From a virus, in the IMG/VR virus record IMGVR_UViG_3300028802_000026, positions 1 through 45,432 of that record: a stretch of DNA of 45,432 bases; one strand, written 5' to 3'. Shown here one piece after another: positions 5,050 to 35,566 of this stretch. A model generated the notes under the pieces. The model saw only the letters and a program-made list of their open reading frames with translations. It was not told the origin of the DNA and made no database searches. Within the stretch, counting starts at the first letter, position 1, and each line of letters starts with the position of its first letter. The translations under genes and the position numbers were made by a program.

Positions 5050-5265
5050 TCAAAGTGTACATGCGTTCCAGACATTCGCTTCCTTATGATACAGGGTCGT
5101 ATTGGCCCCAGCAGCACCATCTTCCCTGAGAGCATAATCGTTGTTCGCTCCTAGTGTATTTGGTGGCACACCCAAGACAGAATAGATACGGATTCTACCC
5201 AAACGAAGAAAGGCAGGAACTTCACCTATCCCCTCCTGTTGAGTGTATGACTCTGCTTGGAACAT
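5050..5265 (-). CDS. Small hypothetical virion-region protein
   Basis: A 71-residue protein starting one base inside the stop of the gp10-like gene and ending ten bases before the next start. It has a short beta-rich segment (GRIRIYSVLGVPP) and no cysteine pair or helix motif that I recognise. Its tight packing between tail-hub and ejection genes suggests a virion or assembly role. Confidence 0.6.
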   Translation of the reverse strand: MFQAESYTQQEGIGEVPAFLRLGRIRIYSVLGVPPNTLGANNDYALREDGAAGANTTLYHKEANVWNACTL

Positions 5266-8757: not shown

Positions 8758-8958
8758 CTATTCCTTTAGAGAAAGATGATCGTGAAGCTCTGCAAGAGAG
8801 TTACCAGTAGGATGCTTGGGTTTCAAGCCTTTTGCCGTGGCCTTATTACCGTGCATCAGACCTATTTTATTGAGAGTCCCATAGACTGCTCTGTCATTAC
8901 CGGGGTACTCAGCCTTCAGCTTTGACTCCACATCTTCAACTGCTGATCCTTTAGGCAT
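8758..8958 (-). CDS. Small basic hypothetical protein
   Basis: A 66-residue basic protein starting MPKGSAVEDVESKLKAEYPG, with a conserved-looking YGTLNKIGLMHGNKATAKG segment that I associate with short uncharacterised phage proteins in head gene clusters. The start is decided by a perfect AAGGAGG six bases before the ATG at 8958; a longer frame from 8997 would overlap the upstream gene by 47 bases and has no such site. Confidence 0.7.
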   Translation of the reverse strand: MPKGSAVEDVESKLKAEYPGNDRAVYGTLNKIGLMHGNKATAKGLKPKHPTGNSLAELHDHLSLKE

Positions 8959-10309
8959 AGGCAACCTCCTTAACCTTCCCATGAAGGAGTTCTTCAAGGT
9001 CTAAGGCTACTCTCTCAATGACTACCGGCCAACCGGATTGATCTATTTCCGGGTTTCTGTAGAGTCTCACACTCTTATACCACGGCATCCCACCCGTGTT
9101 CTGATACCTCCAAGCGGGGAATTTCGGAGTCATCACCCAACAAGGAACCCCTAAAGCGCCAGCAAGATGTACAACTGAAGTACAGATGGTTATTACTAGA
9201 TCACAAGAGGCTACCAGCTTTGCAGTCTCGTAATAGTCTTCAGCCTTTGCGTATTCATCCATTGTCTTGATGTCATAGCCTAAAGCTTTTACGAGTTTCA
9301 GTTCTTCCTCGCAGTTGGTGTATTGAAGGCTTACAAACTCTACATCCTTCTGATTGAGAATAGACTTCCACCAAGACAAGGGGACTGATCTTTTTTGCAC
9401 CCGACCGAGCTTCTGACCACCACCAGTCCAGGAGACACCGATTCTGAACTTATTGCCTTTAGGTAAAGGTTCTGTCTTCATATATTCTGTGCCTGGAAAT
9501 TCCGCTCTGGACCTTCTGTAGAATTTACCCAAAGACCCCATTGAAATCTGATAGTCGAAGTCCTCAGTCTTCGCCCACTCTGGGTCTGGGTCTTCTCTCG
9601 TACCGAAACACTTCACCCCGAAAGATTTCTCGAATAAAGTCTTCAGTCTGGTGTGACACTCGATAAGAATAGGATTGGTTTTCATGATGTCAGGGAGCAT
9701 GGAGGCGAACATGATCTCATCTCCGATTCCCTGTTCACCATAGACGGCTACTTTCTTGCCAGGAGTCCCGTCCCATTGAGGCTTACCACCCAAAACCCTG
9801 TTAGCCCTAAGACCTCCGGGTTTCAGACCCCAATCGTATTCATCCCAACCTGTCTCCCATTTCCCGTCAGCTAAGAGAGCTAAAGAGAGATTCCAGTGAG
9901 CCAGAAAATGATTGGGGCTTAGATCAATGGCCCTCTTACAAATTGTTCGGCATTTGTCGTCTTCACCGGCCTCGACAAACAACGCACTGTAATTGGCCAG
10001 AACTTCACCTGAAGGATTGTCTTTAATAGACTCCTCGAAGAACTTCATGGCTTTTTCTCGTTGACCCGAGAACTTATAGGCCATGCCGAGATTTGAAAGA
10101 ACATCGTCCTGCTTGAAACCAAGTCTTACCGCGTATTCCAGAAGACAGATAGCTAGACCCATCTTACCCATCTGGCAATACATCGTCCCCAGAGTAGCTA
10201 GAAGACCTGGGTTATTGTGATTCTGTGTCAGTAATTCATCATAGAGTTTCTCTGCCTCTGCGAAATCTCCTTTGAGATGCAGAGCACAGGCTTTGTCCCA
10301 TTGTTCCAT
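8951..10309 (-). CDS. TPR-domain glycosyltransferase (GT9-like)
   Basis: A 452-residue fusion. Residues about 1-150 are tetratricopeptide repeats (LHLKGDFAEAEKLYDELL, NLGMAYKFSGQREKAMKFFE, HWNLSLALLADGKWETGWDE). Residues about 180-430 look like a GT9/heptosyltransferase-type GT-B domain, with GEQGIGDEIMFASMLPDI at its start and CDLVITICTSVVHLAGALG, the nucleotide-sugar loop, near residue 375. GT9 enzymes use ADP-heptose in lipopolysaccharide assembly and, in the TibC family, transfer heptose to serine of adhesins. The TPRs suggest a protein acceptor. With the heptose-type genes downstream this is a good candidate transferase. The ATG follows directly on the terminator T-tract upstream. Confidence 0.75.
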   Translation of the reverse strand: MEQWDKACALHLKGDFAEAEKLYDELLTQNHNNPGLLATLGTMYCQMGKMGLAICLLEYAVRLGFKQDDVLSNLGMAYKFSGQREKAMKFFEESIKDNPSGEVLANYSALFVEAGEDDKCRTICKRAIDLSPNHFLAHWNLSLALLADGKWETGWDEYDWGLKPGGLRANRVLGGKPQWDGTPGKKVAVYGEQGIGDEIMFASMLPDIMKTNPILIECHTRLKTLFEKSFGVKCFGTREDPDPEWAKTEDFDYQISMGSLGKFYRRSRAEFPGTEYMKTEPLPKGNKFRIGVSWTGGGQKLGRVQKRSVPLSWWKSILNQKDVEFVSLQYTNCEEELKLVKALGYDIKTMDEYAKAEDYYETAKLVASCDLVITICTSVVHLAGALGVPCWVMTPKFPAWRYQNTGGMPWYKSVRLYRNPEIDQSGWPVVIERVALDLEELLHGKVKEVAYA

Positions 10310-10345: not shown

Positions 10346-10768
10346 TTAGAAGCTGTTGGGAACTTTGACATCCATGGAGAAGATCACCGTCATATACAGC
10401 GCCCCACCAAGGGTCGTTGCAGATGCCGTTGATACCAGAATGTCAATCGTGTCATCAACACTATAGGTATATAGCGGGGCAGGGAGGTTACAAACAACCC
10501 AACCTTGACCTGCGCTGAGAGTCCCGACTGCCCGATATCTACCTGTGCTATTCCCATCACCTACCAGGACTGCACTGTCGCCGTTATTCGTATTGGCTAC
10601 CTGAATCAGTACAGGCGTCGCTCCCTTCGGGACATTAACCATGAGAACGGTAGATGTCGCAGACAGTGAACCGACGACTGACCAAAACGAAGTAACTGCG
10701 GTCAGACCTACCCGGTTGGTTTTGGGCTGGATGGTGCTTTGTGCTTGATCGGCTGTGAAAGTGGCCAT
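10346..10768 (-). CDS. Probable capsid decoration protein
   Basis: A 140-residue, beta-rich protein of small residues (Thr, Val, Ser, Ala, Gly) with no cysteine, starting nine bases after the major capsid gene with a strong AAGGAGATAAC before the ATG. It shares the capsid promoter and ends just before a strong terminator, so it should be made at capsid-like levels. Those features fit a head decoration or cement protein. The family itself is not recognised. Confidence 0.6.
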   Translation of the reverse strand: MATFTADQAQSTIQPKTNRVGLTAVTSFWSVVGSLSATSTVLMVNVPKGATPVLIQVANTNNGDSAVLVGDGNSTGRYRAVGTLSAGQGWVVCNLPAPLYTYSVDDTIDILVSTASATTLGGALYMTVIFSMDVKVPNSF

Positions 10769-10777
10769 GTTATCTCC

Positions 10778-11875
10778 TTAGTCCGCAGCCGCAGCGACAA
10801 ATGCCGTGACTATTCCGTGATCCTTTGGAGTAGTCAGGTCACTTGACCCTGTGCCAAATCGCAGCTTTTCAATGCGGCGGATTTCCTGAACCCCGACCCC
10901 GTGAAGGAATTCATAGTCGTCAGTATCAGTCGTGCTCTTGGTCCTTTGAGCCCACGCCAGTCCTATAGCTTGAGCCCCACACAGATAGACAGGCTGGAGA
11001 GCAACCCCGACCGAAGCAATTGCAGTACTGATCGTCTGGATTTCAGGGATTTCACGGATGATAATTCCATCCCACACCAGAGAATCTCCGGTGAAAAGTG
11101 GGTTATCTACTCCGCGAACTCTTGCATCCCTATTAGCCAGGGTCAATACGTTGGTAGTGGGGTTGTCTTCGGTCAAATCCCTCCAAGCGAGGGAAGGGAC
11201 AAAAGCGACATACCACTCTTGGTCCATTTCCTTCACATAGACAGGCTTGATCTTCGGAGAAGCGGCTTGAGCCATCCGTTTCATCAAAGACAAGATGTTG
11301 GGAGTCAACTGAGCGGTGCTGCTGATAGCCGAGATAGCGGAGGCGAAAGTCGTTTGAGGAGTCCCAGAGTTAGTGACAGTACCCATCACCGTCCGGTCCC
11401 TGTTATTGACCTGCCAAGTATCCCTTTGGGCGTTGGTCGCGGTGTTGAATAGAATCCCGTCGATCATCGCCAGAGAGTCTACGCAGTCATCCCTCAGCTT
11501 TCTTTGTGCCCATTGTTGAATTTGGGTCCGGGCTGCGTTTCTCAGGTCGATGACTGATTTTTGGACATCCCAGTCATCAACAGCTACTGCGTGTCTTAGG
11601 ACATCGACTGTGAGTTTTTGGGAACGGGAGTTCAGACGTTCTTCATTGCCCTTCAGGGTGTTATTACCTGTTACCCCAATGCCTGTCAGTTCATTGACAA
11701 GGGCAAAAGTGACGGAATCTCCGCGCTTTTTGGTCAGTTCTTCTTTTAGCTGGAAAATGGATGCTTCGTCAGTCCCCATATACCGCTTGAAGCGGGACAT
11801 ACGGACATAATCTCGGAAGAATTCATCATCCCATTGCTGCGGGGTTAAACCCGCGACTGCATAGGTCTGGGACAT
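10778..11875 (-). CDS. Major capsid protein, N4-gp56/DUF4043 type
   Basis: A 365-residue HK97-fold coat protein of the N4-gp56 family (N4 gp56 is about 400 residues). The diagnostic region, RGDSVTFALVNELTGIG followed by TLKGNEERL, is at residues about 50-80. It encapsidates the genome as the main head subunit. It has a scaffold gene directly upstream, its own TTGACA promoter at 11998-12025, GGAGTAA before the ATG and a decoration gene downstream. Its combination with a P22-like portal and tail is a mosaic architecture. Confidence 0.9.
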   Translation of the reverse strand: MSQTYAVAGLTPQQWDDEFFRDYVRMSRFKRYMGTDEASIFQLKEELTKKRGDSVTFALVNELTGIGVTGNNTLKGNEERLNSRSQKLTVDVLRHAVAVDDWDVQKSVIDLRNAARTQIQQWAQRKLRDDCVDSLAMIDGILFNTATNAQRDTWQVNNRDRTVMGTVTNSGTPQTTFASAISAISSTAQLTPNILSLMKRMAQAASPKIKPVYVKEMDQEWYVAFVPSLAWRDLTEDNPTTNVLTLANRDARVRGVDNPLFTGDSLVWDGIIIREIPEIQTISTAIASVGVALQPVYLCGAQAIGLAWAQRTKSTTDTDDYEFLHGVGVQEIRRIEKLRFGTGSSDLTTPKDHGIVTAFVAAAAD

Positions 11876-11997
11876 GGCTTACTCCAATGGTTGATAGGAT
11901 TTTCTCGCCCATAATCCCGGCGTCGGAAAATCGCCCATTGAAGCTGGCGTCGCTTGAAAGACCTTTACGCCCTTTATGGTAGGCGGCACCAAAGCGA

Positions 11998-12025
11998 AAG
12001 ATACTCCAATTCAGATAGTTGTCAA
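11998..12025 (-). promoter_or_regulatory. Sigma70-type promoter for the capsid unit
   Basis: On the minus strand TTGACA (12025-12020), a 16-base spacer and TATCTT (12003-11998) form a good consensus promoter just after the scaffold stop. The expected transcript starts near 11991 and has a leader of about 115 bases before the capsid ATG. Region 11876-12026 holds no gene. Confidence 0.7.
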
Positions 12026-12026
12026 A

Positions 12027-12860
12027 TCATGACTTCAGGATCGAATCCAGGGGGGTAGGACCGCCCCAAACAGGTCGATTGACCCCTTTACTGGGTACGT
12101 CAGTTAAAGACCCCGGAAGTTCATCCCGTTGCTTCTTCAAGTCTTCCTCTCTTTTCTTGTATTCAGCCTCCAGTTCAGCCTTGATCTTGGCCTTCATTTC
12201 AGCTTCCATCTTTCCTCTTAACTGCTCCATACCCCCAGCGTCTTGTAGGTCTTTGTGCATCTTGGCTGTCTTGTAGGCGAATTCAGCCGGGTCTGAAGTT
12301 GCCCACGCTTGATCGGCCAGATGAGGGGCGTCGTTCACCATTTGGTTGAAAATAGCGAATTTCTCGTCATAATCTTGATATCTCGACCTAGCTATAGCTT
12401 CCGAGGTCTGGACCTTGGTAGAAAGAACGGCGAAGTTCTGTTTGCTCTCAAAATCCTGCTTCAGACGAGAGATCGCCCCTTCGGGGTCTTCAAAGAAGGG
12501 CTTTTCCTCCTTCTTTTGCTGAAGTTCCTGAATCTGCCGTTCAAGGGCCTGTCTTTTCCTCGTTTCATCGGCAGCTTTGGCGAAAGCCGCCTTTTCCCTT
12601 GGTGAATACTCCTCTAGGGGCTTTTCAGGGACTTTGGCTGGTTCTGCCTTGGGTTCGACCTTTGGCTCAACCTTGGCCTCTAAAGGGGCTTCCTTGGGGG
12701 CATATTGACCTGTTACCGGGTCTCGGACATTACCTCTGGCGGCTTGCTCCTTATCCCTCCACTCCTGATTGGCAGGAACTACCCTTTCGACTGGAGCTGG
12801 TTCTGCGGGTGCTGGTTCCTTCAGTACATCATCTAGCGAGGTTTTCTCTATTTCAGCCAT
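12027..12860 (-). CDS. Scaffolding protein
   Basis: A 277-residue acidic protein: a Pro/Ala/Glu-rich N-terminus (EPKVEPKAEPAKVPEKP), long charged helices with coiled-coil character in residues about 95-260 (ETRKRQALERQIQELQQKK and MEAEMKAKIKAELEAEYKK), and a short tail ending DSILKS. This profile, directly upstream of the major capsid gene, is typical of phage scaffolds that guide procapsid assembly and then leave. GGAGTCGTAA precedes the ATG. Confidence 0.8.
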   Translation of the reverse strand: MAEIEKTSLDDVLKEPAPAEPAPVERVVPANQEWRDKEQAARGNVRDPVTGQYAPKEAPLEAKVEPKVEPKAEPAKVPEKPLEEYSPREKAAFAKAADETRKRQALERQIQELQQKKEEKPFFEDPEGAISRLKQDFESKQNFAVLSTKVQTSEAIARSRYQDYDEKFAIFNQMVNDAPHLADQAWATSDPAEFAYKTAKMHKDLQDAGGMEQLRGKMEAEMKAKIKAELEAEYKKREEDLKKQRDELPGSLTDVPSKGVNRPVWGGPTPLDSILKS

Positions 12861-13596
12861 TTACGACTCCTATCGCCCTTTCGTCGGCGTCACGTTCGCC
12901 CGAAGCCCCGGCGGCGGGTATCAGACCTTTGTATTTGGTCTGTATGGGAAAGATTAGCGGTTGTACCTTTATTCGTTGTGCAATGCAAAAGATATTGACT
13001 TCCTCATCCGAGAATCGGAATCTCTTGACTGGATTCGGAACGAACGACCGACCATCTCTGGTGACCAGTTTCAGGTCCTGGACCTCGAAACCGTTGTCAG
13101 TATAGAAGTCGAAAAAGAGGGTCGGGTTGAGGTTGTAAAACCCGTGATTCCCCCAGTTGGCAGGGTTCTCATGGATGATGTAACCCCCTTCTTTGACCAT
13201 CGAGGCCATGTTGATTAACGCTCTACCGATGTTGAAGCAGTGTTCAGCAGTCCCTACGTCCAGAACCATGTCGTAGGCTCCACGTGGAACCATCGTCTGA
13301 TTCAGATCGCAGAGAATTTCACAACCCCTCTCTTTGACCACGTCGAAGACATCTAGTTGCGCCCCTAGAAGCCTGAAAAATGAATGGGCATCTGGAATAG
13401 GGTGTGGTTTCAAGCCATGCCGCTTACAGATAGCTTCTGAATCTGCCCTGAATTCAACTGGAGAAAACGTCGTTTTCAGGATGGAATCGATCATCTCCTG
13501 TGGAGCTATTAGGTCCGGATAGCCGAATGAACATACCCTCATTCCGGGCTTTATGAGTCGGCTTATCGCTTCAGTTTGCGAGAGACTTAGAGCCAT
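12853..13596 (-). CDS. Class I SAM-dependent methyltransferase
   Basis: A 247-residue protein. The core, DMVLDVGTAEHCFNIGRAL (residues about 105-125) followed by ALINMASMVKEGGYIIHENP, matches the SAM-binding and helper strands of methyltransferase-11-like enzymes; an Asn/Trp/His-rich loop (NPANWGNHGFYNLNP) follows and may form the acceptor site. It lies at the end of the sugar cassette and overlaps the radical SAM gene by 26 bases and the scaffold gene by 8. A role in methylating the cassette product is inferred from position. Confidence 0.7.
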   Translation of the reverse strand: MALSLSQTEAISRLIKPGMRVCSFGYPDLIAPQEMIDSILKTTFSPVEFRADSEAICKRHGLKPHPIPDAHSFFRLLGAQLDVFDVVKERGCEILCDLNQTMVPRGAYDMVLDVGTAEHCFNIGRALINMASMVKEGGYIIHENPANWGNHGFYNLNPTLFFDFYTDNGFEVQDLKLVTRDGRSFVPNPVKRFRFSDEEVNIFCIAQRIKVQPLIFPIQTKYKGLIPAAGASGERDADERAIGVVNG

Positions 13597-14734
13597 ATTT
13601 GAAGTAGGTCAGAGGTTTCTTGGTTTGAATGGCAGGTTGGATCACCGGAGCGTCGTAAGACCGTCCATTGCAGTGATCGCAGGCTTGAATGGAAGTCTTG
13701 TCTCTCAGGAAACTCCTGATCTCATCTCTGGTAGCGGTCCTGACGACTATTCGATCCTCGAAATAATCAGGTATGGCCTTGAGTTTGTCGGCATTTGCAC
13801 TGAAAGGGCACCTATAGAGGAATCCGTCATGTAGTGTCGCAAGATTCTTAGCGCAACAGGAGGCAAAGATCGAGGCATTTTCCTCTTGAGTTCTGCCATG
13901 CCTATCAAGCGCAGCCGAGTCCGTCCAACCATTCGCTTTTTCCGAGACATACGGGATTTTCCTTTCTTCAAGGGCTGGCAGGAGTTTTTGCAGGTTCCTT
14001 GAGAGTTCGTCATAGTCAGTGATGAAGAAACGTACTTTCGGATGACTCAAAGCCTCCCATTGGGGGTCTCTGGGAACAATGGTCGCGTTGGTGAAGATCG
14101 AAACCTTGGAGATGTTCTCCTTAGAGGTCAGTTTCTCAACTATCAGATGAACGTCTTTGTTCATGAAAGGTTCGCCACCGATTACCCTGACCTCATATAC
14201 TTCATCTGCCTTCTCACACAGAGAGTCTATGGTCTGAACCATCTCGTTCAGGTCCGCATTCTCCGGATTTTCATAATACTGCATCAGATTCGCGCAGTCT
14301 TTACACTTCATCGAACACCGCTCGGTAACGATGAGATCGACGTTCTGGATACTCAGTTTCTCAGGATTAAGATAGTCGTCGTGATGATGTAGGACGGTCC
14401 TGATGAGGTATTTGACATGCTCGGTCGTGTATTTACTGGACTCGTTGTTCCCATTGATCGAGAGGAAGTCGATTCCTGAGATATCGAAGTCCTTCAAAAC
14501 TTCACTACAGGATTTCCAGCTACCTCCCATCCCCCAAACCGGACCGATCATATCCAGGATATTCGGAGAGGTCAGGTAGAAAGCCCCTTTCTTGATCTCT
14601 GAGGTCTTCTTTATAGGAACTCCAAGTAACGATCCTTTGATACGGTCATCAACGAAGCATTCGACCTCGATACCTTTAGCTCTACAAGCATGGAGGGTTG
14701 CCTCTCCAACCACACCAGCCCCGAAGATAATCAT
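13571..14734 (-). CDS. Radical SAM enzyme with N-terminal Rossmann domain and C-terminal cysteine cluster
   Basis: A 387-residue protein. Residues 1-90 start MIIFGAGVVGEA, a GxGxxG nucleotide-binding fold like those of PglD or sugar-modifying proteins. Residues about 130-300 carry the radical SAM cluster motif C140-x3-C144-x2-C147 (ERCSMKCKDC), the GGEPF motif and a strand SIFTNATI. The C-terminal region adds Cys pairs (ASCCAK, YRCPF and ACDHC), as in SPASM/Twitch proteins that bind extra Fe-S clusters. Such enzymes carry out radical chemistry on sugars or peptides. The Rossmann fusion, in a sugar cassette, suggests modification of a nucleotide-bound or protein-bound sugar. Confidence 0.75.
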   Translation of the reverse strand: MIIFGAGVVGEATLHACRAKGIEVECFVDDRIKGSLLGVPIKKTSEIKKGAFYLTSPNILDMIGPVWGMGGSWKSCSEVLKDFDISGIDFLSINGNNESSKYTTEHVKYLIRTVLHHHDDYLNPEKLSIQNVDLIVTERCSMKCKDCANLMQYYENPENADLNEMVQTIDSLCEKADEVYEVRVIGGEPFMNKDVHLIVEKLTSKENISKVSIFTNATIVPRDPQWEALSHPKVRFFITDYDELSRNLQKLLPALEERKIPYVSEKANGWTDSAALDRHGRTQEENASIFASCCAKNLATLHDGFLYRCPFSANADKLKAIPDYFEDRIVVRTATRDEIRSFLRDKTSIQACDHCNGRSYDAPVIQPAIQTKKPLTYFKYGSKSLAN

Positions 14735-14904
14735 GGCAGTCTCATGACTCTAAGGAACATCTCATCTCTACGACGCTCCTGCAATAGCCAATGAATTTGT
14801 TCCTTAGAAAGGCCGCGTTTCGTGGCGGAAAGAATACATCTGAAAAGCTCTTGAACCTCTGGCAGATCGAAACCTAGTGATTCCATTATATCTCTGAAGG
14901 TCAT
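14731..14904 (-). CDS. Small basic protein of 57 residues inside the sugar cassette
   Basis: A 57-residue frame starting MTFRDIMESLGFDLPEV and ending MFLRVMRLP. It starts by ATGA overlap with the GT2 stop and ends by ATGA overlap with the radical SAM start, the linkage used by genuine genes in this genome. AGAGGATTTACCC precedes the ATG. It is helical and basic (KRGLSKEQIHWLLQERRR) with no motif that I recognise. Function unknown. Confidence 0.65.
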   Translation of the reverse strand: MTFRDIMESLGFDLPEVQELFRCILSATKRGLSKEQIHWLLQERRRDEMFLRVMRLP

Positions 14905-15662
14905 GGGTAAATCCTCTTGAATGTCTCCCGACCTGAGCCGTGAATCCGGGTGAAATACAACATGCTATGGTAGACCTTTGAAGAATCCAGAGCGTCTTCC
15001 ATTTCGTCAGGGTCTATATCTGTCTCCTTTAGGAAGGCTTTGACATATTTCAGTCCATCCAGAAGACCGAAAAGTCTTTCCTTCTTCTCAAGGTCGAAAC
15101 TCGTTGAGAGGGAGTTCTGTCTCTTACGGTTGTGATAGACAATGTTCTCCAAAAATCTGACCTTCTTGCACCGTCTTAGATAGTCGAAGTTAAACCCCAT
15201 GTCTTCAGCAGTCACCAATTCAGGGAAGTTGACTATCAGGTCTCGTTTGTAGAGTTTGGCCCAACACCCTGAGAGCATCTGGTTCTCACCCGGGTTTTTG
15301 AGGTTTGAGATGGTGTAGTCGGCTATATCTGTCATGGTAAAAGTCTCGGTGGGATGACTCACGGTCATCTCGAAATCACCGAATTTACGAAATGACCCGC
15401 ACACGAGGTCTGCTCCGTCCATTTCGGAGAGCATCAAATCAATAGCCCCAGGCTCAAAGTAATCATCAGAATCGCAGAACATCACATATTTACCTACTGC
15501 CCTCCTTAGTGCCCTGTTTCTAGCCTGTGCAGCACCAGTACCTTCTGGGTCTCCTTCCACTATGAGTTCCAAGTCGTAGTCATTGACTTTGATGCTGTTC
15601 AAACACTGGGAGAGCCATTTCTTCTCTCCATACACCGGAACAATGACGCTAACGCTTGGCAT
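14901..15662 (-). CDS. Glycosyltransferase family 2
   Basis: About 253 residues, starting MPSVSVIVPVYGEKKWL. The GT-A signature VSVIVPVY leads to AQARNRALRRAVGKYVMFCDSDDYF, where DSDD (residues about 70-73) is the metal- and nucleotide-binding motif. It transfers one sugar from a nucleotide donor. The start at 15662, preceded by GGATGAG, is preferred to the ATG three codons upstream. It overlaps the E1-beta-like gene upstream by 14 bases. Confidence 0.85.
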   Translation of the reverse strand: MPSVSVIVPVYGEKKWLSQCLNSIKVNDYDLELIVEGDPEGTGAAQARNRALRRAVGKYVMFCDSDDYFEPGAIDLMLSEMDGADLVCGSFRKFGDFEMTVSHPTETFTMTDIADYTISNLKNPGENQMLSGCWAKLYKRDLIVNFPELVTAEDMGFNFDYLRRCKKVRFLENIVYHNRKRQNSLSTSFDLEKKERLFGLLDGLKYVKAFLKETDIDPDEMEDALDSSKVYHSMLYFTRIHGSGRETFKRIYP

Positions 15663-16284
15663 AGAACTCATCCATGTGTCTTTGTGAGGCTCCGCAGAAC
15701 CTCAACTCCTGCGGTATCGTGATCTTCTCGCCCTTGGTAGCATTGAATAGACGACGATGTAGGACGTAGAGAGTCGGCATGTCACCCTCTATCGCACCTT
15801 TGAGCATCTGCCTTGCTTCTTTCGGGTTCTGAGGGACACAGACATTCCATCCCTCGCACTTCTGGAACCAGAATGTGAAGTCCTTTGAATGTTGGGCACC
15901 CTGCCCCGTACCTATCCCCCTACCCTCCTGACAGATGAAAGTAATGGGGAGTTTATGGCCCTTGGCGTACCAGATAGGGATATGGTTGAAAAGCGCATTC
16001 ATTCCCGATAGCAGGAAGTCCAGTCGGACGTGGAACATGATGACCCGCTTACCGGCTAGAGCTAGACCCATCGCAGAAGAATTCATCAGTTCTTCCGAGA
16101 CCGAGTAGGTGATGAACCTATCTTGGTATTGCTCATAAAGACCTGTAGTGAGACCAGCATATCCATATTTGATTAGCTGGCCTCCCAAGACTAGGTTGGG
16201 ATACTCCTCAAGAGACTCGTGAAGCGTCCGGTTGATCTCGCCAGCGAACGTCCCTGCTGGACGGACTTCATTGTCCGACTTCAA
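15649..16284 (-). CDS. Thiamine-diphosphate E1-beta-like (transketolase pyrimidine-binding) subunit, short form
   Basis: A 211-residue protein matching the pyrimidine-binding domain of 2-oxoacid dehydrogenase E1-beta or split transketolase. It shows VLGGQLIKYGYAGLTTGL, YSVSEELMNSSAMGLALAG (the Glu that activates the cofactor), and GTGQGAQHSKDF. Full E1-beta is about 325 residues; the C-terminal transketolase domain that binds E2 is missing, so it is unlikely to work in a dehydrogenase complex. It pairs with the E1-alpha-like gene directly upstream. The start is TTG at 16284 with AAGGAGG four bases away. The substrate is probably a sugar or 2-oxo compound in the cassette; inference. Confidence 0.75.
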   Translation of the reverse strand: MKSDNEVRPAGTFAGEINRTLHESLEEYPNLVLGGQLIKYGYAGLTTGLYEQYQDRFITYSVSEELMNSSAMGLALAGKRVIMFHVRLDFLLSGMNALFNHIPIWYAKGHKLPITFICQEGRGIGTGQGAQHSKDFTFWFQKCEGWNVCVPQNPKEARQMLKGAIEGDMPTLYVLHRRLFNATKGEKITIPQELRFCGASQRHMDEFYAKR

Positions 16285-17009
16285 ATGACCTCCTTCGCTG
16301 GAAGTCTTCCCATATAGATATGGTCTCCCTCAAGCTTGACTTTGGCCTCGTAGAAACTAGGTCTGTTGCATCTGGCACTCATTATTGCTGCTGCCATATG
16401 CCTTTTGACTGTTATCCCGAAAGACTCGACTCTTGGACCTAGCGGAGTCGCTTGTCTTTCAGAGATATGAGCATCTACTGACATTTCGTTGTTCTCGCAA
16501 ATGAAGCAGATGGGTAGTTTATTGAGGGCAGCGAAGTTTAGTGATTCCCAGAATACGCCAGCCTCCGTCCCCCCATCGCCTACGACACAAATAGAAACAG
16601 CGTTCGAGCCTTTCAGAGCATAGGCCGTCCCAGTGGCAACCCCTACAAGACCCCCCACAATCGCAGAGGCGTGGAAATTGATGCTTTTGTCCGATATCCC
16701 CTGACTCCCCGAGAACCCCTGATTCACCCCCGTTGGTAATCCATGTATCTCGTCCCATAGTTTTTCTTCGCTTCCGCCCTTGGCTAGATAATGACCGTGA
16801 TTCCTGTGTGTAGAAAATAACCAGTCCTGTGGTTTCATATATTCATGAAGGTCGGCTGAGACCGATTCCTGACCCAGACACAAATGTACCGGGACGTAGA
16901 TGTTCTTCATGTCCTCCAAGAGTCTCATCTCGAAAGACCTCACTCTTTCGATGAACTCCTGCCTTCGGGAGTTCAGTGAAACAACTTCATCGTCTTCAAC
17001 CGATAGCAT
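16281..17009 (-). CDS. Thiamine-diphosphate E1-alpha-like subunit
   Basis: A 242-residue protein of the E1-alpha family. The cofactor motif GDG (residues 144-146), 26 residues, then NN (173-174) in VVGDGGTEAGVFWESLNF and CENNEMSVDA is complete, and Gly/His residues of the active-site loop (THRNHGHYLAKG) are present. Full E1-alpha is about 320-360 residues. With the E1-beta-like partner it should form a heterotetramer that breaks or makes a C-C bond next to a carbonyl. It overlaps the epimerase upstream by 37 bases. No E2 or E3 gene is nearby. Confidence 0.78.
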   Translation of the reverse strand: MLSVEDDEVVSLNSRRQEFIERVRSFEMRLLEDMKNIYVPVHLCLGQESVSADLHEYMKPQDWLFSTHRNHGHYLAKGGSEEKLWDEIHGLPTGVNQGFSGSQGISDKSINFHASAIVGGLVGVATGTAYALKGSNAVSICVVGDGGTEAGVFWESLNFAALNKLPICFICENNEMSVDAHISERQATPLGPRVESFGITVKRHMAAAIMSARCNRPSFYEAKVKLEGDHIYMGRLPAKEVI

Positions 17010-17863
17010 TCGTCCGAGTCCCTTAGTTCGTTGTTATGGTACTTGGCTATCAGTTCACCGATAGCGTCAGCTACTATCTTCTTGGGCTTGAATCCCAGGT
17101 CTAGCAATCTATGAGAATTGATCCTGTATGACCTTGGGTCGTTGGATTCTCTTGGAACTATCTTGCAGGGAATCTTGTTCTGTACTTTCTTTGCAATATC
17201 CTCGATTGTTACATTCTCGAAACCTGCATTTAGGATCACATTATGATGTGGATTTTCAAGAAGCCATACATACAGGTCTGTCATGTCCTGTATATGGATA
17301 TTTGGTCTGTACTGATCCCCGCCATTGAATTTGATCTCCCCATATTCCAACGCTTGAATCACGAAGGAATTGACCATCACATCCAGTCTCATACGTGGAG
17401 ACCATCCACAGACCGTAGCGGGTCTGACAATCTGGATATTCATATCGTTTTTGTATGAGAGAAGGATTCTCTCTGCGAGCATCTTGCTCTTGTTGTATTC
17501 GCTCACCGGGATGAGTAGATCATCCTCTGTTACTTCAGAATTGTTGATCCCATAGACACTACCAGAGCTTGCATAGATAAACTGTTTTACCCCTTTCTTT
17601 GCTGCTCTTTGTGCCAATATCGCGGTTCCAAGAACATTGGTCTCCCAGGTGACCTTTGGGTCTAATTCTCCAGTGGCGTCATTGGGTATTCCTGCGAGGT
17701 GAATGATCGTATCAACACCGACTAGAGGCGCTTCCCAGAAGTTCATCTTGTAATCAGCCTCACCCCCAAACCAGCACAAGTCTACGGTCTTTACATCGTA
17801 GTCCTTTAATTTTGGCAGCAAGACAGAGCCTACGTACCCGGCAGAGCCGGTCAAGAGGAGCAT
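16973..17863 (-). CDS. NAD-dependent sugar epimerase/dehydratase (SDR)
   Basis: A 296-residue extended short-chain dehydrogenase. The Rossmann motif GSAGYVG (6-12), a YASSGS strand, and catalytic Y123-x3-K127 (YNKSK) are present. Members act on nucleotide-bound sugars such as ADP-, GDP- or UDP-hexoses and heptoses; HldD, the last enzyme of the ADP-heptose pathway, belongs to this superfamily. It is directly downstream of the nucleotidyltransferase, which suggests that it acts on the activated sugar. GAAAGGATCAA precedes the ATG, which overlaps the previous frame. Confidence 0.8.
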   Translation of the reverse strand: MLLLTGSAGYVGSVLLPKLKDYDVKTVDLCWFGGEADYKMNFWEAPLVGVDTIIHLAGIPNDATGELDPKVTWETNVLGTAILAQRAAKKGVKQFIYASSGSVYGINNSEVTEDDLLIPVSEYNKSKMLAERILLSYKNDMNIQIVRPATVCGWSPRMRLDVMVNSFVIQALEYGEIKFNGGDQYRPNIHIQDMTDLYVWLLENPHHNVILNAGFENVTIEDIAKKVQNKIPCKIVPRESNDPRSYRINSHRLLDLGFKPKKIVADAIGELIAKYHNNELRDSDECYRLKTMKLFH

Positions 17864-18243
17864 TTGATCCTTTCTATGATTCCGGTTGTGGTTTGGGGAT
17901 TGGGGTTGGTGAATCTGATCTCAATACCGTTTCGCTTGCAGTATTCAATCTCCGAGTCCAGAAGACCCTTTTTACGATAGTCAGAACCTTTGACGAAGAC
18001 ATCGGGTTGCCACTCTCTAAGGGCGTCCAATGAATCAAGGCAAAGTCTCGCATCTGAAATACACCTCAGAGCTTTTACAAGCTCCAGTCTTTCAAGTTCA
18101 GGGACTATGGGTCTTCCTTTCTTATTCACGTTCACATCTTTGGTGACTCCGACTACCAGATCGCCAAACTTTGAGGCTTGTTCAAGGTATCTCAAATGAC
18201 CAACATGAAACAGGTCGAATACGCCATTAGCTAGGACAATCAT
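17851..18243 (-). CDS. Sugar-phosphate nucleotidyltransferase, HldE domain II type
   Basis: A 130-residue cytidylyltransferase-fold protein. It begins with GVFDLFHVGHLRYL (HxGH motif, residues 13-16), followed by DLVVGVTKDVNV and, later, QPDVFVKGSDYRKKG. This matches the C-terminal half of HldE (RfaE), which attaches AMP to heptose 1-phosphate, and is distinct from glycerol-phosphate cytidylyltransferases in detail only, so CTP or ATP use is open. Here it is a free-standing protein; the kinase half is encoded 400 bases upstream. It starts by ATGA overlap with the SIS gene. Confidence 0.82.
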   Translation of the reverse strand: MIVLANGVFDLFHVGHLRYLEQASKFGDLVVGVTKDVNVNKKGRPIVPELERLELVKALRCISDARLCLDSLDALREWQPDVFVKGSDYRKKGLLDSEIEYCKRNGIEIRFTNPNPQTTTGIIERIKCSS

Positions 18244-18644
18244 TTGAGGTTCATCATCACTTTATGACCGAGTTCTATCTGCCACTCTTCTGCCTTTTGC
18301 ATGTTCAGATTCTGAGGTTTTCCAAACTCCCTCCAGACCTTCATACCCCTGGCTTCTGCCATCAAGATAGCCTTCAGGATATTCTGAGACTTCCCACTCC
18401 CTGAAAGGGCGATCAGGAGGTCATCTCTCTCACCGACTACTCCTATCCATCTGGCGAAGGCTTTCTCATACCCATAGTCATTTGAGAACGCAGTTAAGGT
18501 AGACGGGTCAATGCAATAAGCCCTTACACCAACCGATAGGAGGTCGTTACAGATGTGCATTGCATTAGCATAACTTCCTCCATTTCCGATGATATAGACA
18601 TGGGGAGCTAGTTTTATCAGTTCAGTGAGTTCTGATGAATTCAA
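18240..18644 (-). CDS. SIS-domain sugar-phosphate isomerase, GmhA-like, short
   Basis: A 134-residue protein with the sugar isomerase (SIS) fold: GNGGSYANA (residues about 20-28), TAFSNDYGYEKAFARW and SGSGKS (81-86). These match GmhA, which converts sedoheptulose 7-phosphate to D-glycero-D-manno-heptose 7-phosphate. GmhA is about 190 residues; here the N-terminal helix and a stretch before the C-terminus are missing, while a GH pair near the end (WQIELGHKVM) may match the conserved C-terminal His. The start is TTG at 18644 with AAGGAG seven bases upstream. It overlaps the kinase gene. Confidence 0.75.
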   Translation of the reverse strand: MNSSELTELIKLAPHVYIIGNGGSYANAMHICNDLLSVGVRAYCIDPSTLTAFSNDYGYEKAFARWIGVVGERDDLLIALSGSGKSQNILKAILMAEARGMKVWREFGKPQNLNMQKAEEWQIELGHKVMMNLK

Positions 18645-19467
18645 TCAGTTTCTCCTTGGTGACTGACTCTCTGTGACCCACTATCCCGGTCTTTAAGGCC
18701 CCAGCGGCACAGCCTATAAACAGGAGGTCTTCCATCTTCCCTGTCTTGGCCATTGGGGCTGTAATAGAGAAGAACGCATCCCCGGCACCCATCGTGTCCC
18801 TGACTAAATCAGTGAAGGCGGATTGCCGGTAGAACTTTCCTTCGTGATACCCAACTGCACCCCTATGACCTAGAGTCACTACGAACTTCCAACATCTGTT
18901 GGTAGCGAGTTTTATGATGACGTTCTCTATAGGTCCGTCCCGGTCACAAGCTGCCAGTCTAGCTTCTGGCTCGTCGATAACGATATAGTCCGCACGTCTG
19001 TATTTGGTTATCAGGTTGAAACCCATGTTGGCTGAATTGGTCTGAGCGGCCACCGCGAGAAATGAAGACTCCCGGCAAAGCTCCGAGATTCTTTCTTCCG
19101 TAATGGCCCCATGACCAAAATCTGCTACGACTACAACGTCATAACCTTTCGGAGAGACATAGTTCTGGGTAAAACCATCGGTATAGTGAACCTCGAATAG
19201 CTTCCTCATATAGTCTTTGTCAACCATCCTGACCTTACGAGTGGTATGACCATGACCTGAAACTATGACTTCCTTGCAGAAGGTTTTTAGATGATTCGCA
19301 GCGGCGTCTACTCCACCATTGAATAGTTCCTGAGACTCGTATTTAACAGGGATCAGGTTCTCTTTAGCTGACTTACCTAATGGAGTGACATAGTGATACT
19401 CGTCAATGATCGTATCGCCGACAAAAAGTACCTTATAGTCCTTGATAGACTCGATCAGATCAATCAT
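18622..19467 (-). CDS. PfkB-family sugar kinase, HldE domain I type
   Basis: A 281-residue ribokinase-fold kinase. Present are GDTIIDEYHYV at the start, a VVVVADFGHGAIT strand, the DEPEARLA helix and DTMGAGDAFF (residues about 224-233), whose Asp is the catalytic base. HldE domain I phosphorylates D-glycero-D-manno-heptose 7-phosphate at C1. Together with the isomerase and nucleotidyltransferase it makes a heptose-activation set; the phosphatase GmhB is not seen and could come from the host. The ATG at 19467 is preferred to the TTG at 19476 and overlaps the previous gene by eight bases. Confidence 0.8.
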   Translation of the reverse strand: MIDLIESIKDYKVLFVGDTIIDEYHYVTPLGKSAKENLIPVKYESQELFNGGVDAAANHLKTFCKEVIVSGHGHTTRKVRMVDKDYMRKLFEVHYTDGFTQNYVSPKGYDVVVVADFGHGAITEERISELCRESSFLAVAAQTNSANMGFNLITKYRRADYIVIDEPEARLAACDRDGPIENVIIKLATNRCWKFVVTLGHRGAVGYHEGKFYRQSAFTDLVRDTMGAGDAFFSITAPMAKTGKMEDLLFIGCAAGALKTGIVGHRESVTKEKLIEFIRTH

Positions 19468-19834
19468 TGGCTGCAATCATCATCACCAGCATCATGTCGT
19501 CTTCATCCTCCGCTCTAAGTTTCTCTCTCATGAGAAGACCTATCTCTCTGTCTACTTCAGCCGAGGTCATCTCCTGTATTGGCTTTAGGTCTATCTGAAC
19601 ATCAAACTGAGGTTTTATGACCTCTTCATAGACCTCTCGTTGAATCTGTTGAGATTCGACTACTCTCTGTTCTAACTTCTTATTTACAAGACCTGTTGGC
19701 TTGTAGATGGTCCGTCTTTTCTTCTTTGGGTCTATACCTCCGGTGCCGGTCTTAACGTCAACAACGACTACACCAGAATCTCCGGTGTTGAAGATCGTGT
19801 TATTGAAGATCGAAGCGTTGAAAATGCCGCTCAC
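19460..19834 (-). CDS. Hypothetical virion-region protein
   Basis: About 124 residues. It begins with a beta-like GIFNASIFNNTIFNTG repeat of a type found in phage virion proteins, then an SGVVVVDVKTGTGG strand, a basic linker and a charged helical C-terminus. The GTG at 19834, overlapping the upstream stop as GTGA and preceded by GGGGAT, is the likely start; a TTG at 19852 is possible. The role is unknown. Confidence 0.6.
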   Translation of the reverse strand: MSGIFNASIFNNTIFNTGDSGVVVVDVKTGTGGIDPKKKRRTIYKPTGLVNKKLEQRVVESQQIQREVYEEVIKPQFDVQIDLKPIQEMTSAEVDREIGLLMREKLRAEDEDDMMLVMMIAAND

Positions 19835-20067
19835 GCAATCCCCAACCACCAAGGACGTTTCATCATGTAGAACTTATGCGCCCAAAGTTCATTCCTTAGA
19901 TACCACTCTGGGCCTTGGTTTCTAAGAATCCATCGTCTTTGCTCTTGCGCCCATGTATATTTTTGAGGAGCAGGTATTTCAATTTCAGAAGGTTCAAAGA
20001 ATGAAAACCGAGGTATAACCGGGGTAATTCCAGGAATTCCAGTGCCTTCATAATAGATAACAGCCAT
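19831..20067 (-). CDS. Small aromatic-rich hypothetical protein
   Basis: A 78-residue protein rich in Trp, Tyr, Pro and Arg (QKYTWAQEQRRWILRNQGPEW). It starts five bases before the end of the fusion gene upstream and overlaps the following gene. No family is recognised. It is co-transcribed with the fibre and glycan genes. Confidence 0.6.
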   Translation of the reverse strand: MAVIYYEGTGIPGITPVIPRFSFFEPSEIEIPAPQKYTWAQEQRRWILRNQGPEWYLRNELWAHKFYMMKRPWWLGIA

Positions 20068-20071: not shown

Positions 20072-21361
20072 CTACCCCAGAGGACCTTTTGCCCTTGGTT
20101 CGAGGACACAGTGAAGGTCTTCACCGCCTTGAAGAATTGTCCCGATCTTGAAGAACTGATTGAGTTTTTGAGTCCAGAAGGATTTATCGGTAGACTTTAT
20201 GACAGCAAAAACGCACTTCCTTGAACACCTAACGAGGTCTCCAAGGACGTTATCCAACATCTCCCTCTCTACACATTCAAGGACGTTCAGACAGACCACT
20301 AAATCTGCCGGTCGTGGTACGGAGTCTTTTCCAGGTATAGCAGGGTCGTATTCCCAGATCGGAAAGGGGAGTTTTTGAGCAAGAGTCCCCTTTCCACACC
20401 CATAGTCCATGATGTTTCTAGTCTGTAGAGCGTCTGAGAGTTTGACGATTACGTCTTTATGCTTTCGACCACCCAAACCATAGGTGGGGTCAAGGTGAAG
20501 TCGTTTCATCTCCTTTACGTGGTTTTCAGTGAAAGTCACCGGAGTCTTGAAGGCTATTGCTGCTGACTTTTTTGCCTTGAATTCCTTCTTATCCTGGGCC
20601 ATGTGTTGCAACAGCCCATCACCGTATAGGTTGAACGAGACATCCGGGAGTTGCTTGATCTCGTGGAAGAACTGATGTGCATAGGTCAGCATTACAGGCT
20701 CTACATAGAAAACTTTACCTGCGTAGGGGACTTCGTAGAGTTTCTTGTGGGTGTTTAGATGGACTCCGGCATGGTGTTCATCTCCTTTGGGAAAGGAACA
20801 ATCCATACCAAAGATATGCTGGTTGGTAAATCCCAAAGCCCTAGCAACTACCATGAGTCTCAGACCTACGTTATTCCCTCCGGTGAGAATCCACTCTCCA
20901 GGAGGATAAGATAGAGGGAGTTCTTTCTCATCTTCGTTGTTGAAGATATGCCACAGCTTTACCTTGTAGCCTTCAAGGAGTTCCCACATAGACGGATGAC
21001 AGCAGGAGGCCATCAGGTATTCAGTATCTTTGTTCGGCGTACCCAGCATCTTGACCTTGTGTTCCCTGGGGTCGAGGTCTACATGGTAAGTCGGTGTAAT
21101 TTCCCTCTCCAGAAGGAACTGGTGAGCACCTGAACAAGTCATTATCTTCTTGAATTTACGAATATCCTCCCAGTTCTTCTTCAGGGAAGGTCCATAACAT
21201 ACAAGGGCTATGGGTTCGGAGGTTAGAGTCTCTGAAGGTACGAGTCTTTCCGAGATTTTAGATAGAGCGATCCGCATCTGGTCTTCGCGGATTTCACTGG
21301 AAACACAGTACCGGGTCTCGACCTTCTGATCGAGGGCGAGTCTTTTTAGCCCGTTCGCCAT
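20072..21361 (-). CDS. DUF115/Maf-like glycosyltransferase fused to a methyltransferase
   Basis: A 429-residue two-domain protein. Residues about 50-260 look like DUF115 (MptE/Maf-like): CYGPSLKKNWEDIRKF, HQFLLEREITPTYHVDLDP and the LTGGNNVGLRLMVVARALGF helix. Maf proteins in this superfamily attach nonulosonic sugars to Ser/Thr of flagellin. Residues about 310-420 hold a methyltransferase, with MDYGCGKGTLAQKL and ADLVVCLNVLECVE. The ATG overlaps the serine-rich fibre stop by 16 bases, so translation is coupled to the fibre. The context suggests that it glycosylates or finishes the fibre. The fibre role is inference. Confidence 0.72.
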   Translation of the reverse strand: MANGLKRLALDQKVETRYCVSSEIREDQMRIALSKISERLVPSETLTSEPIALVCYGPSLKKNWEDIRKFKKIMTCSGAHQFLLEREITPTYHVDLDPREHKVKMLGTPNKDTEYLMASCCHPSMWELLEGYKVKLWHIFNNEDEKELPLSYPPGEWILTGGNNVGLRLMVVARALGFTNQHIFGMDCSFPKGDEHHAGVHLNTHKKLYEVPYAGKVFYVEPVMLTYAHQFFHEIKQLPDVSFNLYGDGLLQHMAQDKKEFKAKKSAAIAFKTPVTFTENHVKEMKRLHLDPTYGLGGRKHKDVIVKLSDALQTRNIMDYGCGKGTLAQKLPFPIWEYDPAIPGKDSVPRPADLVVCLNVLECVEREMLDNVLGDLVRCSRKCVFAVIKSTDKSFWTQKLNQFFKIGTILQGGEDLHCVLEPRAKGPLG

Positions 21362-23145
21362 ATCGCCCCGGCTGTACCCTCTTTGATGACGATTTGATTC
21401 GCAGCCCCAGAGACTTCAGGGAAGGCTTGTAAAGCTAAAGTCCCGGAAGTCGAGACCTTACAAACCCCATAGACTGTTGCAAAGAATTGCTCGGTAGAGG
21501 TCTGACAGCTAATAGCTTGAACTCTGTCCCCTGAAGTCGTGATCGACCCTGAGAAAATACCTGCGGTTCCATCTACTCCTGAAGTAATTTCAGCCGTAGC
21601 GGCGAAATTGGTCATTCCTGGGAAAGTCACTGTCAAACCCAGACCCGAGGCGGGGGCTGCTGAGGTATAGATGACGTAGTACCTGAAAGCGTAGGTATTC
21701 CCTGCACCTACTGAAAATCCCATTGCTGACACACTGGCCGGGGTGGAGACTGAGATCAGTTGAGACCCCTTTAGAACGGCTTTATTTGCCATCAGGGATG
21801 TCATCTGGGCTGAGAGGGCTGAGACCTGAACTGAGAGTGCCGACTCAAGAGCACTCAACGAGGAGTGCTGTACAGACAGTGTAGAAAACGCCGCTGACAG
21901 GGAAGAATGTTGAACAGAGAGCGTCGAGAATGCTGCGCTAAGACTTGAATGCTGAACTGACAACGCAGAAAGCAGAGCAAGATTGGAACTAACGACCGCG
22001 CTCAGGGCATTAACAGACAAAGCCCTTACCGAAAGTTCATTTGAGAATGCCACACTCAAAGCTGAGACTTGAGCAGACAGACTTGAATGCTGAACGGAAA
22101 GAGCTGAGACCTGAGCAAGATTGGTGCTGACTATGGCACTCAGGTTATTGATCGATAACGCTCTGGCTGAGAGTTCATTGGATAGTCCAGCCCTGACGAC
22201 AGAGACTTCAACGCTCAGAGTAGAAACATTGGCCTGAACTACAGAAACTGCTACCGATAACGCACTGAAGTCTGCCTGAAGACTGACAAACTCGGCTGAA
22301 GTCGGATGGACCTCTCCCCCTCCACCTCCTGAAATACCTGCCATGAACACAGAATTATTGGAGACTCTTGCATCCAGAACAGAAAAACTCACACTCAGGC
22401 TGGAGACATTCGCCCTAACGGTAGATACTTCAACACTTAAAGAAGAAAGATTCGCTGCGACTACCGAAACTGCCGCACTTACGTCCGAAGTCCTGACACT
22501 GACTGCTGAGACTTGTGCACTCAGCGTCGAGTGAAGCGCAGATAAGGCACTTTCAAGCGCAGAAAGGCTTGAGAGTTGAGCTAGGTTGGTACTTACAATC
22601 GCTGACAGATTGTTGACAGATAAGGCTCTGGCAGAAATCTCGTTCGAGAGTCCTGCTTGAACGACTGAGACAGCCACAGACAAGACGCTAAGATTCGCCC
22701 TTACGGTGGAGACTTCTACAGAGAGGGTAGAGACATTAGCCCTAACAGCACTGGTTTCAACGCTCAAAGCGGAGACATTGGCTTGTACGACCGAAACGGC
22801 TACCGAAAGAGCCGAAACGACAGCGGCGTTCGATGAGACCGTCGCACTCAGGTTTGAGTGTTGGACAGAAAGGGCGGAAAGTCCTACGGACAAAGCACTT
22901 ACGTCTGCTTGAAGACTTATAAATTCAGCGCTTGTAGGATGAGCCTCACCACCTCCGGTCAGGACGGAGATTTGCTGACTCAGAGAGTCTATATGCGCTT
23001 CTACAACTGATATAGAAGCCGAAAGCCCTCCTACCGAAACCGCACCAGATACAAAATGGTCATCATTCCATTCAGCAGCATTGACCGACTTTGTTGGGTC
23101 GTCAGGAGCTTGAACAGAAGTCTTATGCTTGATCTGGATAGTCAT
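21346..23145 (-). CDS. Serine-rich coiled-coil tail fibre
   Basis: A 599-residue fibre protein. Residues about 5-35 carry the HKTSVQAPDD...VNAAEWNDDH motif of phage fibre N-termini. Residues about 40-470 are a serine-rich repeat with a 14-residue (two-heptad) period, for example VSALSVAVSVVQAN, VSALSVETSAVRAN and VSTLSVEVSTVRAN, with hydrophobic residues at coiled-coil spacing. Larger units recur: a GGGEAHPTSAEF block is duplicated and a LSNE(I/L)SARALS block occurs three times. Residues about 480-599 form a beta-rich C-terminal domain. It probably trimerises into a long shaft for host binding. Many exposed Ser side chains could be O-glycosylated. Confidence 0.8.
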   Translation of the reverse strand: MTIQIKHKTSVQAPDDPTKSVNAAEWNDDHFVSGAVSVGGLSASISVVEAHIDSLSQQISVLTGGGEAHPTSAEFISLQADVSALSVGLSALSVQHSNLSATVSSNAAVVSALSVAVSVVQANVSALSVETSAVRANVSTLSVEVSTVRANLSVLSVAVSVVQAGLSNEISARALSVNNLSAIVSTNLAQLSSLSALESALSALHSTLSAQVSAVSVRTSDVSAAVSVVAANLSSLSVEVSTVRANVSSLSVSFSVLDARVSNNSVFMAGISGGGGGEVHPTSAEFVSLQADFSALSVAVSVVQANVSTLSVEVSVVRAGLSNELSARALSINNLSAIVSTNLAQVSALSVQHSSLSAQVSALSVAFSNELSVRALSVNALSAVVSSNLALLSALSVQHSSLSAAFSTLSVQHSSLSAAFSTLSVQHSSLSALESALSVQVSALSAQMTSLMANKAVLKGSQLISVSTPASVSAMGFSVGAGNTYAFRYYVIYTSAAPASGLGLTVTFPGMTNFAATAEITSGVDGTAGIFSGSITTSGDRVQAISCQTSTEQFFATVYGVCKVSTSGTLALQAFPEVSGAANQIVIKEGTAGAIWRTG

Positions 23146-23812: not shown

Positions 23813-24116
23813 TGCGCTTTACCCAGACCCCATCAACGCGCTGGTGAACAGTCCCATCATCGAGTGCCATAAGGGAGCCTTCCTTATGGATGAACTCCAG
23901 GTCGATGGGACACCAATAAGAACCTCTATCCCCGCTCTGATAACCGGCAGCGCGATAGATCGGTAGCCATGCTGCCTTGTTTTTCCGAGGTGGCATATCC
24001 CCATGAAACAAGAAATGACGCCCATCAAAGTGATGAGGCTTGCCTATATGCTTATGTATCTTCGCAAGCACTTCTGCGTGCTTCTCTATAGGTAGTTGTT
24101 TATGAAAGCGGATCAT
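23799..24116 (-). CDS. Hypothetical protein next to the portal gene
   Basis: A 105-residue, His- and Lys-rich protein (HKQLPIEKHAEVLAKIHKHIGKPHHFDGRH). It starts by TGATG overlap with the portal stop. No zinc or catalytic motif is clear. It may be a head-assembly or DNA-packaging accessory by position. Confidence 0.6.
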   Translation of the reverse strand: MIRFHKQLPIEKHAEVLAKIHKHIGKPHHFDGRHFLFHGDMPPRKNKAAWLPIYRAAGYQSGDRGSYWCPIDLEFIHKEGSLMALDDGTVHQRVDGVWVKRNVHV

Positions 24117-35226: not shown

Positions 35227-35566
35227 GGCACCTCCGTCCTTTAGAAGTATGGATAAAACCTGCCTCTAGTGATTTACCGCAGAGACAGCAATTCGCGTTC
35301 TTCGGATACGCGACCCCCGTTGGGGACACCCCGGCGGTACCGGCCATAGGTGTTCCATGCCCGTTTAAAAAGACTCCTGCCCAACCCCTCTCTATCGACT
35401 CCTCCAAGATCGCTACCACATTAGCCCCATTCTCTACTCGCCACTTCTCTAATTTCCTCAGTATCAACTCTTCTGCATAGTCTGTCATCGGGTGTTTAAT
35501 CTTTTTCCTCATCTTCTTGAACTCAGACCATAAGGACTCGGGGATGGAGTCAGGAAGCAAGGTCAA
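35216..35566 (-). CDS. Replication-associated-like protein with C-terminal zinc motif
   Basis: About 116 residues. The N-terminus, LPDSIPESLWSEFKKMRKKI...AILEESIERGWAGVFL, is a helical element that is common in phage replication-region proteins. The tail has a C-x2-C, H and C-x2-C arrangement (CCLCGKSLEAGFIHTSKG, RRCHEC) that could bind zinc. The frame begins with TTG at 35566. It may recruit the host replisome to phage DNA. Confidence 0.55.
   Translation of the reverse strand: MTLLPDSIPESLWSEFKKMRKKIKHPMTDYAEELILRKLEKWRVENGANVVAILEESIERGWAGVFLNGHGTPMAGTAGVSPTGVAYPKNANCCLCGKSLEAGFIHTSKGRRCHEC

Follow-up and report, generated by a model that had tools for sequence, protein, structure and literature searches.

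The closest described systems to the locus reported here are the bacterial ADP-heptose pathway (GmhA, HldE, GmhB, and HldD) and a gene set in the cyanophages S-SM2 and P-TIM68. In these cyanophages, genes for an E1-like thiamine diphosphate (ThDP) protein, a carbohydrate kinase, an epimerase, an HldE-C-like nucleotidyltransferase, a phosphoheptose isomerase, and a glycosyltransferase are clustered (T4-GC 304/305/308 of Sullivan et al. 2010). They have been described as lipopolysaccharide (LPS) genes of unknown function (PMC3037559). We analyzed a similar sugar activation cassette in a podovirus-like phage, in positions 1 to 45,432 of the IMG/VR record IMGVR_UViG_3300028802_000026 (this whole stretch is referred to as the window). 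The cassette is a variant of the set already published for cyanophages. However, the E1-alpha (E1a) and E1-beta (E1b) proteins are separate in the window and fused in the cyanophages, where the kinase is also nearer the canonical HldA type. The S-SM2 cluster is close to hli03 and tRNAs (PMC3037559), which is not the setting of the window cassette. Compared with the bacterial ADP-heptose pathway, the cassette retains the isomerase, kinase, and nucleotidyltransferase folds, with catalytic motifs largely kept. Unlike in that pathway, the kinase and nucleotidyltransferase are separate, GmhB is missing, and there are additional ThDP and radical SAM enzymes. We found nothing specific on phage heptose cassettes in the openly accessible literature, nor on phage glycosyltransferases with tetratricopeptide repeats (TPR).

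A sequence-only reading of the window had assigned positions 14901 to 19467 to a minus-strand operon of overlapping genes that makes an activated heptose or related sugar, inside the structural module. We confirmed seven overlapping minus-strand open reading frames (ORFs) between the portal and scaffold/capsid genes. They encode a PfkB-family sugar(-phosphate) kinase (18622 to 19476; PF00294, 3e-11), a GmhA-like SIS isomerase (18240 to 18644; PF13580 [SIS_2], 3e-10), an HldE-domain-II-like nucleotidyltransferase (17851 to 18243; CTP_transf_like, 5e-18), a short-chain dehydrogenase/reductase (SDR)-type nucleotide-sugar epimerase/dehydrogenase (16973 to 17863; Epimerase PF01370, 1.3e-30), E1a-like (16281 to 17009; PF00676 [E1_dh], 1e-25) and E1b-like (15649 to 16284; PF02779 [Transket_pyr], 1.4e-20) ThDP enzyme subunits, and a GT2 glycosyltransferase (14901 to 15671; PF00535 [Glycos_transf_2], 3.3e-18). 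These are the enzyme classes that had been proposed, and all seven family matches are well above chance level. The six overlaps are 23, 4, 13, 37, 4, and 23 nucleotides, in this order from kinase/SIS to E1b/GT2. PHROGs matches place the operon in the structural module, flanked by terminase (27224 to 28672), portal (24116 to 26431), major head (10778 to 11875), and head-closure (5265 to 6833) genes, all on the minus strand. The kinase end of the proposed extent fits an internal ATG at 19467 (residue 4), which is a possible start in addition to the TTG at 19476. At the other end, the cassette runs further, with genes for a radical SAM protein (13571 to 14734, minus; PF04055, 1.7e-9) that has an N-terminal Rossmann-like segment by eye and a conserved protein (12853 to 13596, minus) that is methyltransferase-like by eye. 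Family searches of this conserved protein had no match.

We propose that the cassette encodes a pathway, presumably expressed late, for a nucleotide-activated, modified heptose used to glycosylate a protein that is most likely part of the virion. We give this proposal as a whole about an even chance of being correct. The SIS protein would convert a ketose phosphate (host sedoheptulose 7-phosphate [S7P]) to an aldose phosphate, the HldA-like kinase would add the C1 phosphate, host GmhB would remove the terminal phosphate, and the HldE-II-like enzyme would join the nucleotide (probably ADP). Modification of the sugar would fall to a two-subunit ThDP carboligase, the SDR, and the radical SAM protein, perhaps through transfer of a two-carbon acyl unit to a keto-sugar. 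Finally, the phage GT2 and a TPR protein encoded at 8951 to 10309 would attach it. The radical SAM protein and the TPR protein, which point to a target, had not been noticed in the sequence-only reading.

The predicted model of the 284-amino-acid (aa) kinase (pLDDT 92) had HldA 4e84 as its closest PDB structure (VIA-align Z 27.0, root mean square deviation 3.3 over 267 residues), followed by ribokinase (Z 24.8). Foldseek also placed HldA 4e84 first (3e-17), although a fold similarity is not proof of substrate. The best evidence is a non-orthologous exchange. In L004, L010, and L100 (other records compared here also carry L numbers), the kinase slot beside the SIS protein is filled by proteins scoring 272 to 319 bits against the HldA model, and the L004 SIS protein, next to a near-canonical HldA kinase, is 67% identical to that of the window. 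Therefore, we read the divergent window kinase as probably carrying out the HldA step. The solved relatives of the 134-aa SIS protein, which is without the GmhA N-terminal segment, are phosphoheptose isomerases (1x94, 2.7e-17). It keeps E. coli GmhA Ser55, His61, Asp94, Ser119, Ser121, and Ser124 in the alignment. The 130-aa nucleotidyltransferase has a TTTGIIERI motif and, at the aligned place, the HxGH motif as HVGH (HVAH in L014).

Homologous bacterial genes also fit heptose chemistry. Of 34 bacterial homologues of the kinase, 31 are part of a fusion in which the kinase is behind a nucleotidyltransferase domain, which is the reverse of HldE. The fusion clusters also hold SDR, SIS, E1a, and E1b genes and sometimes GmhB. 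Among 80 bacterial clusters, 7 had GmhB beside the homologous genes.

Several results weigh against a simple heptose assignment. The base of GmhA, Glu65, is replaced by Asp in all of the phage and bacterial SIS members that we aligned. The conserved SIS His127 is opposite GmhA His180 by spacing, as judged by eye, and automatic alignment left the two unpaired. We take Glu65 and His180 to be the catalytic residues of GmhA (E. coli numbering). Also, four of the proteins are below the NCBIfam equivalog cut-offs (gmhA, rfaE_dom_I, rfaE_dom_II, and heptose_epim). The kinase, a divergent PfkB protein, scored 51.8 bits against the HldA model TIGR02198 (cut-off 345), the SIS protein 80.5 bits against gmhA (209), the nucleotidyltransferase 83.4 bits (E 1.4e-23) against TIGR02199 (rfaE_dom_II; 181.5), and the SDR 63.4 bits against heptose_epim (274.6). 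Therefore, ADP-heptose is only a working reading. GmhB had been reported as missing, and we did not find it in the window record, which may be incomplete, with TIGR01656 or E. coli GmhB; a weak match occurred in only 1 of 25 records. We conclude that heptose chemistry is supported and that plain ADP-heptose is unproven. The earlier claim of an activated heptose or related sugar is partly supported, and its heptose direction gains from the HldA-like kinase fold, the kin of the SIS protein, the HldA-like kinases in the kinase slot of related phages, and the bacterial GmhB genes. However, ADP-heptose synthesis does not explain the ThDP enzyme, and so the evidence reaches only a heptose or related, further modified sugar. 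We are highly confident that an activated sugar is made from a sugar phosphate, and we consider it reasonably likely that this sugar derives from heptose.

The SDR (TGSAGYVG and YNKSK motifs) had 6vo6 as its closest solved relative (3.5e-22), which is probably Campylobacter Cj1427. The Campylobacter route to modified GDP-heptose has a kinase of the GHMP type together with a guanylyltransferase. In this capsular system, as proposed for the window, an isomerase, kinase, phosphatase, and nucleotidyltransferase act from S7P before SDR changes (PMC10680097). However, it is not known to include a ThDP enzyme.

The E1a protein (242 aa) resembles the alpha subunit of pyruvate dehydrogenase (PDH) E1 (3.5e-29), and its ThDP motif (GD...NN) is conserved across the alignment. 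In the E1b protein (211 aa), the catalytic Glu and the QHSK region are largely conserved (a relative, L019, has QQNK). The transketolase C-terminal domain (PF02780) was not found in window E1b, although it is present in the bacterial homologue L150, and median lengths are 210 aa in phages versus 324 aa in bacteria for E1a and 217 versus 351 aa for E1b. In PDH, this domain of the beta subunit contributes to E2 binding. Because it has been lost and no E2 gene was recognized, we infer that the pair is a free-standing carboligase. PDH-E1-like alpha/beta pairs are found in other sugar gene clusters, as AviB1/AviB2 and Pau11/Pau12 (PMC4425429). Pau11 (325 aa) and Pau12 (345 aa) are full-length proteins, unlike the window subunits, and the likeness is by description only.

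The ThDP enzyme recurs in related cassettes as three families, usually with a radical SAM protein. An acetolactate synthase (ALS)-type enzyme is in the corresponding place, beside the SIS gene, in L009, L094, and L099 (the last identified by eye), and L007 has a split transketolase with PF02780 beside a nucleotidyltransferase-kinase fusion. The ALS-type enzyme is itself split into two phage ORFs in L009 (11999 to 13580) and L094 (2950 to 4678). By eye, the 155-kb viral contig L081 combines an E1 pair with multiple radical SAM genes and a further split transketolase-like pair. Two routes to two-carbon sugar branches have been described, one with PDH-like (E1-type) pairs and one with the TPP-dependent flavoprotein YerE (PMC4425429). 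By analogy, these routes suggest a branched sugar as the product. Recurrence of the ThDP enzyme, usually with a radical SAM protein, makes a modified heptose the probable product, and we think it quite likely that the sugar is altered beyond ADP-heptose.

Alternatively, the ThDP pair might be a dedicated transketolase supplying the SIS protein with its ketose phosphate (S7P or an analogue), which would make plain ADP-heptose independent of host supply. Transketolase chemistry makes S7P, and the split transketolase in the L007 slot is consistent with this idea. However, PDH E1 is a closer match to the window pair (3.5e-29) than transketolase is (about 1e-8), the enzymes of L009, L094, and L099 are of the ALS type, which takes 2-oxo acids as donors, and hosts already make S7P. 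Therefore, we regard a transketolase role as unlikely. Such a role is a matter of the chemistry and would fit either a protein or a surface target.

The cassette is maintained in other phages. In L014 (IMGVR_UViG_3300018077_000100), the order is the same as in the window: terminase, FkbM-like methyltransferase, portal, MptE-like protein, 130-aa protein, kinase, SIS, nucleotidyltransferase, SDR, E1a, E1b, GT2, radical SAM, conserved protein, scaffold, and capsid. Protein identities between the two are about 33 to 75%, and 38 to 75% from kinase to scaffold (GT2, 49%; conserved protein, 55%; radical SAM protein, 69%). Parts of this order are also found in L015, L098, and L005. A reduced set (kinase-SIS-E1a-E1b-radical SAM, with the nucleotidyltransferase nearby) is present in L002, L003, L006, and L010, whose portal and terminase have no detectable similarity to those of the window. 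Six cassette genes of L002/L003 had ratios of nonsynonymous to synonymous substitution rates (dN/dS) of 0.05 to 0.10, compared with 0.16 for portal, which indicates purifying selection in that pair (for the window and L005, dS was saturated). Single-sequence scans with the window kinase and TPR protein returned no viral relatives. Some sets differ, which counts against our proposal: L009, L094, and L099 are without the E1 pair, and no SDR was seen nearby in L002 to L004, L009, or L010. Therefore, no single fixed product fits all. The L004 terminase large subunit (10347 to 12764; 805 aa) has an apparent intein-like insertion by eye.

The setting of the cassette bears on its target. In unrelated phages, it is located in the terminase-capsid block or immediately before it. 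The TPR protein gene (minus strand; PF07719, 5e-14) is downstream of that for the major head protein. The C-terminal domain of the protein is tentatively GT-B/GT9-like: its match to GT9 PF01075 was sub-threshold (E 0.07), hhalign gave 91.6% against a WaaF profile over 35 columns (controls, 0.2 and 1.2%), and a PDB search had no match. With a profile built partly from the window's own TPR protein, strong matches among cassette records of 30 kb or more numbered 7 of 12 (the window and 6 of 11 others), compared with 0 of 38 controls (Fisher P = 8e-6), which were a nonrandom sample of viral records of at least 30 kb with E1a-like genes, picked by E1a match. After related records were collapsed to lineages, the figure was 3 of 8 (P = 0.004). 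L099 has the gene row ThDP-radical SAM-nucleotidyltransferase-SIS-GT2-TPR protein just before a terminase-like gene, and in L192 a homologue of the conserved protein (2301 to 2978, by eye) follows the TPR protein.

There are precedents for such a transferase. FlmG is a TPR-GT-B protein O-glycosyltransferase, with N-terminal TPR (PMC7591256). It uses pseudaminic acid and flagellin, and its likeness to the window TPR protein, in which the GT-B resemblance is weak, is by domain description only. TibC moves heptose from ADP-heptose onto protein serines (PMC4358343). Because the TPR protein is enriched in cassette records and these precedents exist, the evidence favors a protein or virion target over LPS, and the chance that the acceptor is a protein or the virion is, in our estimate, roughly one in two. 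Against a TPR transferase for this sugar, the assignment depends on the 35-column match, and the L006 and L007 records have the cassette without the TPR protein. Conversely, the distant relative ctDrO704 has no cassette but encodes the TPR protein close to its capsid gene. Therefore, the TPR protein can work with another sugar, and its link to the cassette may be lineage plus chance. The cyanophages also differ from the window in that no TPR protein of this family was found in them.

Instead, the GT2 might place the modified heptose on the LPS or capsule of the host, so that other phages would not adsorb or the cell would be protected. Bacterial SDR/E1-pair homologues are in polysaccharide-locus-like clusters with kinase, SIS, and epimerase genes, and the similar cyanophage sets were described as LPS genes. 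However, such remodeling is argued against by the enriched TPR protein and by the fact that, in several unrelated phages, the cassette is located within the block of particle-assembly genes, and no flippase, ligase, or polymerase was recognized among the ORFs scanned. We view it as a possible but less probable role. Modification of phage DNA by the sugar, as some T4-like phages do with arabinose or glucose, is very improbable. The window has a gene for a Mom-like DNA modification protein (35550 to 36137, minus; PF25680, 5e-14), but we recognized neither a gene for modified-pyrimidine synthesis nor a known DNA glycosyltransferase among the ORFs scanned, and the cassette is among particle genes. 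ARAGORN called a tRNA at 36041 to 36113, overlapping the Mom-like gene, and its anticodon was unreadable.

Returning to protein glycosylation, some neighboring genes might participate. A fibre-like, Ser/Thr-rich repeat protein (21346 to 23145, minus; 599 aa, 27% Ser+Thr, ALSV-type repeats) is one possible glycan acceptor. It has look-alikes in L005 and L017, and the L014 counterpart, with a similar N terminus, is collagen-like (GPSGPS). We rejected it as the obvious acceptor because L015 and L098 do not have it between portal and kinase, which also counts against the proposal. An MptE-like protein (20072 to 21361, minus; PF01973, 1.7e-18), a candidate accessory transferase, had a poor predicted model (pLDDT 58) and weak profile matches to the MptE-type enzyme 8sd5 (2e-4) and to 5mu5 (4e-4), which we take to be a Maf transferase. 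An FkbM-family methyltransferase (26415 to 27272, minus; PF05050, 3.5e-8; TIGR01444, 6e-11, above cut-off) between terminase and portal possibly has a role in glycan decoration. A conserved 130-aa protein (19460 to 19852, minus) overlaps the kinase gene by 17 nucleotides, and homologues precede the kinase in L005 and L014. Farther away, the window encodes a PAPS-reductase-like protein (41566 to 42330, plus), a kind of gene that is common in phages.

A broader possibility, which we consider doubtful, is that several unrelated phages share an exchangeable mini-pathway for a two-carbon-branched heptose, with a ThDP carboligase drawn from any of three families and a soluble TPR glycosyltransferase acting on their own virion proteins. 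If true, this would be a complete phage-encoded protein glycosylation system, with its own donor sugar included. Few phage groups are known to glycosylate their virions, and most sugar clusters in phages are catalogued as LPS genes, with their function untested. Because the present set is compact, includes candidate transferases of its own, and is in a small genome, about ten genes would be enough to test the question. Furthermore, the recurring, family-swapping ThDP enzyme suggests that the bacterial chemistry of heptose-type sugars includes a step not yet described.

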